Below, in pieces: positions 7,838-43,978 of a DNA stretch of 64,000 nt; the first letter of the stretch is position 1; every line of letters begins with the position of its first letter. The notes beneath the pieces were generated by a model. The model did not search any database. It worked only from the letters and a program-made list of their open reading frames with translations, and was not told the DNA's origin. The DNA is from Anaerolineae bacterium (GTDB lineage Bacteria; Chloroflexota; Anaerolineae; Aggregatilineales; Phototrophicaceae). Where the stretch lies: NCBI GenBank assembly GCA_022824365.1, contig JAJEAA010000011.1, positions 1 to 64,000 of the forward strand. Direction: 5' to 3'. A program made the position numbers and the translations under genes.

Positions 7838-7941
7838 GATGAGCCAGGATACCACAAGACACCCAGATGTTTTCCTTAGTGCTGCTGCCGTTAAGCCCTG
7901 ACACGGTTCGGAATTTTCTGCCGCAAGGGTCCCGGCTCATC
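7838..7941 (-). ncRNA. ffs: Signal recognition particle RNA, small bacterial (4.5S) type
   Basis: The minus strand reads the domain IV core of SRP RNA: GAACC, GTCAGG, then the apical hairpin and AGCAGC-ACTAAG, the internal-loop bases bound by Ffh. The flanks close a long hairpin: GATGAGCC at the 5' end pairs perfectly with GGCTCATC at the 3' end, giving a 104-nt RNA of the usual small size. The apical loop is C-U-[UAAC]-G-G instead of the common GGAA loop; URRC loops are a known minority form. The RNA works with Ffh and FtsY in cotranslational targeting of membrane and secreted proteins. A near-consensus promoter lies seven bases upstream. Seen: core motif, stem, loop. Inferred: exact ends. 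Confidence 0.9.
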
Positions 7942-32768: not shown

Positions 32769-32864
32769 GGGGGTGGATGTGTCCCGGTGGATGCCCCGGT
32801 CTTCAAAATCGGTGAGCGGTTGCGCAGAGCAGGCGCTGGTGGGTTCGACTCCCATGCACTCCCG
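32769..32864 (+). tRNA. selC: tRNA-Sec (anticodon UCA)
   Basis: The 96-nt sequence folds as a selenocysteine tRNA. Acceptor GGGGGTG(G) pairs with (G)CACTCCC through G-C, G-U and A-U pairs, with the eighth pair a G-G mismatch. The D arm is a long six-pair stem GTGTCC/GGATGC with a four-base loop CGGT, as expected for tRNA-Sec. The anticodon arm CCGGT-CTTCAAA-ATCGG puts TCA at 32803-32805, reading UGA. The variable arm is long (AGCG-g-TTGC-gcaga-GCAG-g-CGCT) and the T arm is GTGGG-TTCGACT-CCCAT. Discriminator G; CCA is not encoded. It is charged by SerRS, converted by SelA and delivered by SelB; none of those genes is in the window. A TATAGT box lies at 32753-32758. Confidence 0.95.
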
Positions 32865-42765: not shown

Positions 42766-42794
42766 TTGACAGATCCCGCGCGCATTGTTATTCT
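42766..42794 (+). promoter_or_regulatory. Consensus-like promoter of the cysteine synthase gene
   Basis: TTGACA (42766-42771), exactly 17 bases, TATTCT (42789-42794). Transcription should start near 42801, giving a leader of about 210 nt before the gene. Confidence 0.85.
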
Positions 42795-42820
42795 CGCGGG
42801 AAGCAGGTCAAATAGGGATC

Positions 42821-42880
42821 ATGATGTCATATCATCTTTGTTGTTGCTGTTGCCAGACGACGGGAGCTTCGTCCGCCTGA
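42821..42880 (+). CDS. Leader peptide with five consecutive cysteine codons
   Basis: A 19-codon frame MMSYHLCCCCCQTTGASSA. The five cysteine codons TGT-TGT-TGC-TGT-TGC run from 42839 to 42853. AGGG lies five bases before the second ATG (42824), which is the likelier start. It lies 20 nt after the expected transcription start and is followed by an intrinsic terminator and then the cysteine synthase gene. This is the arrangement of an amino-acid attenuator, where ribosome stalling on scarce charged tRNA-Cys would decide whether the terminator forms. Translation is inferred, not shown. Confidence 0.82.
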   Translation: MMSYHLCCCCCQTTGASSA

Positions 42881-42911
42881 GATAACAGCCAAAGATCCAA
42901 GACTGATTATC

Positions 42912-42988
42912 AAAGTCAACTGGCAAAGGCGCGAGGCTCCGACAAGCGGAAGCCGAGGCGGAGCGCCCCTGAGCAAGTTGACTTTTTT
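42912..42988 (+). terminator. Attenuator terminator in the cysteine synthase leader
   Basis: A ten-pair perfect stem AAAGTCAACT (42912-42921) / AGTTGACTTT (42976-42985) runs into TTTTTT (42983-42988). Inside it lies a further GC-rich stem (GGCT-CCG / CGG-a-AGCC). Candidate competing pairs are TCCGCCT (42872-42878, at the leader stop codon) with AGGCGGA (42956-42962), and TTGCCAG (42850-42856) with CTGGCAA (42920-42926). It ends 24 bases before the ATG at 43013, whose ribosome site GGTGGAG lies after it. Confidence 0.85.
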
Positions 42989-43012
42989 GTTGGAGAACCC
43001 GGTGGAGCCGGC

Positions 43013-43978
<966 letters not shown>

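Follow-up and report, generated by a model that had tools for sequence, protein, structure and literature searches.

Predicted cysteine-sensing transcription attenuators upstream of cysM and, in tandem, upstream of cysH in Anaerolineae

Does the leader of a cysteine synthase gene in an Anaerolineae bacterium act as a transcription attenuator that senses cysteine? The question arises from a locus in the window, i.e. the whole stretch of 64,000 nt that was analysed (contig JAJEAA010000011.1), for which the original prediction had listed a TTGACA-N17-TATTCT promoter, a short upstream ORF (uORF) with five Cys codons in a row and a ten-pair terminator ending in six T, all ahead of a cysteine synthase gene. 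On re-reading the window we recovered every one of these elements. Promoter, uORF and hairpin with its T6 lie inside the intergenic leader, which extends from 42721 (the end of the preceding ORF) to the ATG of the synthase gene, here called cysM, at 43013:

42766..42794, + strand: predicted sigma-70-type promoter, TTGACA (42766-42771), 17 nt, TATTCT (42789-42794), 10/12 consensus
42824..42880, + strand: leader peptide ORF, MSYHLCCCCCQTTGASSA and stop, with an extra in-frame ATG at 42821
42839..42853, + strand: five Cys codons (TGT TGT TGC TGT TGC), also arm 1 of the protector hairpin
43013..43978, + strand: cysteine synthase (O-acetylserine sulfhydrylase) of the CysM/CysK family, 321 aa, from NCBIfam matches

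Read directly from the window, the uORF at 42821-42880 encodes MMSYHLCCCCCQTTGASSA. The second ATG (42824) is the likelier start, because the close ortholog L038 has that one alone, 5 nt past a GGAG. The uORF starts 29 nt past the -10 hexamer; no other ORF of 8-45 codons (ATG or GTG starts) on either strand of the window has 4 or more Cys within 7 residues. The downstream protein reaches 325.4 bits with the NCBIfam cysM model (cut-off 394.2) and 321 bits with cysKM (cut-off 344.15); it thus scores under both curated equivalog cut-offs, and the assignment is made at the level of the CysM/CysK family.

For the conservation of the uORF we took the best 80 cysM loci of a longer list and left out L064 and L107, so that each of the remaining 78 had at least 400 nt of upstream sequence. 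Within these 400 nt, 45 of the 78 loci have a short ORF in which Cys makes up at least 4 of 5 residues. Dinucleotide shuffles give 0.05 such loci per 78 and a control stretch gave 1 of 76, which agrees with the earlier claim that such a Cys run is unlikely to occur by chance. At a threshold of at least 3 Cys in 5 residues, and still among the best 80 matches, the uORF is present at all 25 close orthologs (at least 76% identity) and at 33 of 49 more distant loci (absent at 16). In a last group of four loci it occurs in L112-L114 (labelled Acidobacteriota, Blastocatellia and Acidobacteria) and is missing in L115. An automatic finder placed a terminator after the Cys uORF at 23/25 close, 28/49 distant and 3/4 last-group loci (means of 1.3, 1.8 and 0 loci in shuffles). 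The check that had been proposed, i.e. retention of Cys run and terminator at homologous loci, therefore came out in favour of the prediction, and the terminator stem is 93.3% paired (see below). In a second sample of 29 best-match cysM loci, partly from the same genomes (at least 3 Cys in 7 residues within 500 nt), the Cys uORF was found at 3/3 loci of the same genus, 6/9 of the same family and 3/6 of the same order, and at 0/11 loci elsewhere in the class (four genera, with eight loci from one genus). Within this 29-locus sample the cysM Cys uORF apparently stops at the order. The nearest named relatives of the cysM gene are Anaerolineae or Chloroflexota metagenome-assembled genomes. Several of the distant leader peptides (some of L062-L104) have a common LKRGR/EKRGR-like tail after the Cys run, perhaps reflecting pairing at the RNA level.

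Downstream of the uORF the following elements belong to the terminator and to a protector hairpin:

42884..42889, + strand: anti-Cys-codon element AACAGC, pairs with GCTGTT of the Cys run (protector 1:2)
42912..42924, + strand: 5' arm of the terminator, AAAGTCAACTGGC (direct reading, alignment pairing)
42976..42988, + strand: 3' arm of the terminator, AGTTGACTTT, running into T6 at 42983-42988 (direct reading, alignment pairing)

In the predicted terminator, AAAGTCAACT (42912-42921) forms 10 pairs with the 3' arm (42976-42985) around a large branched loop, and T6 follows. A standard terminator scan, limited to loops of at most 8, gave no match at the cysM leader, and the window leader as a whole does not fold into an unusually stable structure (z -0.86). 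Pairing was read from an alignment of 26 leaders (the window and L036-L060), each cut from TTGACA to T6. Both motifs were found in 26/26 leaders (L057 has TTGACA twice, and the first was used); the invariance of these columns is uninformative, since the leaders were cut at them. The TAT of the second promoter hexamer is also invariant. Over the 12 columns of the terminator stem, 93.3% of the cells are paired (slid controls: 9-49%). The variation in the stem is mostly one-sided, and its covariation score was matched by 110 of 500 column shuffles; as related sequences are not independent, shuffle counts of this kind are not probabilities. Pairing of the Cys run with a downstream AACAGC-type element is found in all 26 leaders (7-14 bp; summed 547, compared to 407, sd 15, in shuffles). 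In the window alone this protector shows no significance against shuffles (p 0.27), and the AACAGC element can alternatively pair with CTGATTATC just downstream.

An attenuator would further need an alternative structure that competes with the terminator. For the window the candidate segments are:

42865..42871, + strand: AGCTTCG, extends the window antiterminator by pairing with CGAGGCT (42932-42938); window and near kin only
42874..42878, + strand: arm 2a, CGCCT, overlaps the uORF stop and forms a helix with AGGCG (42927-42931)
42888..42891, + strand: arm 2b, GCCA, forms a second helix with TGGC (42921-42924) in many relatives, weak in the window
42927..42938, + strand: arm 3, AGGCGCGAGGCT, partner of arm 2a and AGCTTCG

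In the minimum-energy fold downstream of the Cys codons, the best antiterminator of the window consists of CGCCT:AGGCG plus AGCTTCG:CGAGGCT (12 pairs, -21.0 kcal/mol). The pairing probability of TGGC is 0.25-0.30, so GCCA:TGGC is weak there. This structure shares no bases with the outer 10-pair terminator stem and excludes the stem only by enclosing its 5' arm. A nested antiterminator of two 2:3 helices is possible in 24 of the 26 leaders, all except L041 and L058 (588, compared to 322, sd 49, maximum 432, in shuffles). In 14 of the 24 it is made up of CGCCT:AGGCG with GCC(A/G):TGGC; in L050 and L053-L055 GCAA:TTGC is combined with AGCG:CGCT, both arms differing, and both arms are changed in L056, too. 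Single contiguous antiterminator helices are mostly at chance level one by one (summed over 58 leaders: 849, compared to 785, sd 18, maximum 835). The cysM antiterminator is short and lineage-dependent. Upstream pairing of arm 3 has a mean probability over the 26 leaders of 0.54 with the Cys run masked and 0.17 with the Cys run free; with arm 2 shuffled it is still 0.45 (40 shuffle means, the highest being 0.50). A CCGCCT-type arm was found in 22 of the 26 leaders; in these, arm 2 lies 17-25 nt from the Cys run, and the distance between arm 2 and the uORF stop codon is -13 to +6 nt. Two alternative pairings had originally been suggested. The first, TCCGCCT:AGGCGGA, stands in its core, since most leaders retain CGCCT:AGGCG; the window has two copies of AGGCG, and the tested one is the nearer (42927-42931). 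The other, TTGCCAG:CTGGCAA, scores above letter shuffles (313 versus 242, sd 11). We rejected it for its lack of covariation (means: matched 12.04, mismatched 12.07); in L050 and L053-L056 no more than 3-5 bp of it are left.

Searching the genome for four consecutive Cys codons, we reached a second case on another contig, out of reach of the original prediction, which had only the window to go by:

contig C18, L170:2359-2764, outside the window: predicted tandem attenuators with Cys-rich uORFs, ahead of the cysH operon (uORFs, terminators, alignments)

The operon contains cysH, a siroheme synthase N-terminal domain, a sirohydrochlorin-chelatase-like gene, a uroporphyrinogen-III methyltransferase and a NirA-like sulfite or nitrite reductase. 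Its leader begins with a predicted promoter; uORF A (MNRICCPACCCQALSAESRAE) and then uORF B (MNLRFQSCPCVCCCCAVPKWQGYPGLAERCSR) follow, each with a predicted terminator behind it, and cysH comes last. A search of the genus found cysH in 33 of 34 genomes (34 matches), and 30 loci were examined: both Cys uORFs are present at all 30, with at least 4 Cys in 7 residues in both at 28, the cluster of uORF B being thinner in L243 and L250. A regular expression finds terminator A in 29, terminator B in 28 and TTGACA in 28 of the 30 leaders; the missed terminators are variant hairpins (A in L202, B in L242 and L256), and several B leaders have a poor T tract (e.g. CTCGTTGC). Outside the genus, 7 of 26 cysH loci have a Cys-rich uORF within 700 nt, one of them (L210) two; these two lie upstream of cysH on the reverse strand of L210, in a second genus of the same family.

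Attenuator B has an alternative pairing that is supported by compensatory changes. Its GYPGL-like codons (GGTTATCCGGGGC) pair over 13 bp with the terminator 5' arm and loop (GCTTCGGATAATC), with 95.9% of the cells paired (slid versions: at most 55%). Compensatory changes are seen as three pairs with double changes (reached in 1 of 500 shuffles) and four such cells (0 of 500); in L242, for instance, an A-U pair is now G-C, both sides having changed. A contiguous B helix of 10-14 bp is present in all 28 of the 30 leaders tested (794, compared to 425, sd 14), L242 and L256 having been missed by the motif. Pairing of the RNA, rather than a function of the protein, is thus a candidate explanation for the conserved GYPGL-like ending of the peptide. 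The last Cys codon lies 15-21 nt from the antiterminator arm in 30/30 leaders (18 nt in 26). The stop codon follows 17-20 nt past the arm in 26/30, so that a ribosome at the stop would occupy the antiterminator loop and not the arm; the consensus fold has a hairpin immediately ahead of the arm, and this hairpin could hold the arm after the ribosome has passed. For attenuator A, whose terminator is conserved, a contiguous antiterminator was rejected as being at chance level (377 versus 371, sd 12). A split antiterminator helix is possible; it is 92.9% paired, with almost no variation. In the protector of attenuator A, where the Cys codons face GGTGGxGC, double changes occur in 19 cells (0 of 500 shuffles), yet only 77.6% of its cells are paired, and the number of its pairs with double changes was matched by 410 of 500 shuffles.

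Beyond these loci, the cysM homologs L112 and L113 have a MAMCCC(C) uORF, and a 14-bp helix joins its later codons to the terminator arm (for both, p 0.01, the lowest value that 100 shuffles allow). Judged from their sequences, these two leaders, two loci only, are the same design in another phylum (phylum as labelled). In the genome under study no Cys-rich uORF was found upstream of cysS, sat or a second cysK-like gene, and a search for cysE gave weak matches only (best 35.4 bits, cut-off 210.65). For other matches to the Cys-codon patterns (57/57 of the first pattern, 30/43 of the second), the screen took only the length of the ORF and its density of Cys into account. A short ORF with five Cys in seven residues, MRRCKCCCCSSCRGR, lies on contig C22 near 79.5 kb (L150:984). 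The two Rfam matches at gathering score in the window itself mark a selenocysteine tRNA gene (32769-32864, + strand) and a bacterial small SRP RNA (7839-7937, - strand).

Taken together, the elements, their conservation, the terminator pairing, the geometry and the covariation of the cysH B antiterminator form the basis on which we regard the cysM leader as very probably a ribosome-mediated, cysteine-sensing transcription attenuator, predicted to be on when cysteine is short. The mechanism originally proposed thus holds as the best reading, supported by Cys uORF conservation and terminator pairing. With enough Cys-tRNA, the ribosome would translate the Cys run, reach the stop that overlaps or abuts arm 2, and cover this arm; the terminator (42912-42985) would then form and transcription would end at 42983-42988. 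With Cys-tRNA in short supply, the ribosome would stall on 42839-42853 and arm 2, downstream at the distance given above in most leaders, would stay free to pair with arm 3 inside the terminator (in the window by CGCCT:AGGCG and AGCTTCG:CGAGGCT, in many relatives by CGCCT:AGGCG and GCCA:TGGC). The terminator could then not form properly, and cysM would be transcribed. If the uORF is not translated, the Cys run would pair with AACAGC and termination would be the default. The cysH operon of this genome would follow the same logic, with two attenuators in series. What we infer here is that the ribosome stalls, that the switch responds in this direction and that transcription does terminate in the cell.

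Other explanations of the same elements have to be weighed. The Cys uORF might govern ribosome access to cysM in a mycobacteria-like manner, i.e. by translation attenuation, the hairpin being no transcription terminator. Actinobacterial Cys leader peptides are indeed described without obvious terminators in the available part of PMC1262725, and that of PMC13236596 cites translation attenuation for cysteine genes of M. smegmatis. At cysM, however, the conserved stem is followed by T6, and as T6 ends 24 nt 5' of the cysM ATG, the ribosome site falls outside the hairpin; the terminator hairpins found by regular expression in nearly all cysH leaders point in the same direction. We consider translation attenuation very unlikely. 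That a small-metabolite riboswitch or T-box operates here, with an incidental ORF, is suggested by the large branched hairpin with its partly conserved inner GGC/GCC segments, but the conserved parts include the Cys ORF and its complement. Rfam gave no match at the cysM leader, neither at gathering score nor up to E 1, and just two at the cysH leader, far under their gathering scores. In the absence of a covariance-model match at the cysM leader, T-box, SAM and other Rfam riboswitches were rejected, and we hold a reading of this kind to be extremely unlikely.

It is barely conceivable that another amino acid is sensed, the repeat being a run of Leu (TTG/CTG) or of Val/Ala codons in another frame. 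In fact, if read one base earlier, TGTTGTTGCTGTTGC gives a run of Leu codons, and short ORFs with Leu clusters occur in 21 of the 78 upstream regions (from the best 80 matches) at the threshold that finds Cys clusters in 45. Several cysH leaders, however, have interspersed Cys codons (for example TGT ACC TGT ACC in L243, L250 and L251), so that Cys is kept and Leu runs are broken, and the cysM and cysH gene sets both serve cysteine synthesis.

With cysteine-sensing transcription attenuation as the preferred reading, the two loci probably belong to one cysteine attenuation regulon in Anaerolineae, in which cysM would have one attenuator and the cysH/siroheme/sulfite-reductase operon two complete ones for the same signal in series. 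Similar leaders, their 14-bp antiterminator encoded within the uORF, precede cysM homologs in Acidobacteriota. At cysH, RNA polymerase would have to pass two cysteine checkpoints. If this is true, the tandem attenuators should respond more steeply and leak less, at the costly step of sulfate reduction, than the single one at cysM. The tandem arrangement also raises the question of what is gained by cascading two leaky switches over one.

Classical trp/his attenuators comprise a promoter, a short ORF rich in the end-product amino acid, alternative protector, antiterminator and terminator structures, and a biosynthetic gene downstream. The cysM and cysH leaders share the promoter, the short ORF, the predicted alternative hairpins and the downstream biosynthetic gene; they differ in that cysteine would be sensed, in the large branched terminator loop at cysM and in the tandem copies at cysH. 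As in that type, a run of codons for the pathway product lies in a short, conserved ORF, and an intrinsic terminator is found by sequence between ORF and structural gene at both cysM and cysH. Compensatory changes in the antiterminator are present for cysH attenuator B, and the antiterminator arm is placed just outside the footprint of a stalled ribosome (17-25 nt at cysM, 15-21 nt at cysH B).

Runs of Cys codons in uORFs before cys or cbs genes are reported for Mycobacterium, Propionibacterium and Bifidobacterium (PMC1262725, PMC4633059, available parts), also by Canestrari 2020 (as cited in the available part of PMC13236596), and Shell et al. 2015 regarded the mycobacterial Cys uORFs as potential first examples of cysteine-directed attenuation in bacteria (PMC4633059, available part). 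The Cys-codon run is common to these leaders and ours. The difference lies in the terminators: the available part of PMC1262725 describes no conserved terminator hairpins at actinobacterial Cys leaders, and the mycobacterial polycysteine uORFs are leaderless and without terminator, whereas here the uORF starts well past the -10 hexamer and terminators are present at cysM and cysH. In the uORFC-8-2 motif of Rhodobacterales cysS, too, a uORF contains tandem Cys codons and an intrinsic terminator lies behind it; the motif differs in its two Cys codons, in its gene (cysteinyl-tRNA synthetase) and in belonging to Alphaproteobacteria, and no second attenuator is mentioned in the available part of the source (PMC8632094). 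Among the matches listed by a full-text literature search (at most 20 per list), with most subscription journals outside its reach, neither a Cys attenuator from Chloroflexota nor a pair of tandem attenuators for one and the same signal was seen. Cys leader-peptide attenuation is a known kind of regulation, and same-signal tandem attenuators look new. To the Cys leader peptides known earlier, from actinobacteria (no conserved terminators seen) and from one alphaproteobacterial cysS motif, our data add a case, built on comparison, for transcription attenuators at genes of cysteine synthesis and sulfate reduction in Chloroflexota, to which two similar leaders in Acidobacteriota can be joined. 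The leader of Salmonella mgtCBR has two uORF attenuators, but there mgtM and mgtP answer different signals, ATP and proline (PMC3641672, available part). In the cysH leader, by comparison, uORF A and uORF B are both rich in Cys and would read the same signal twice.
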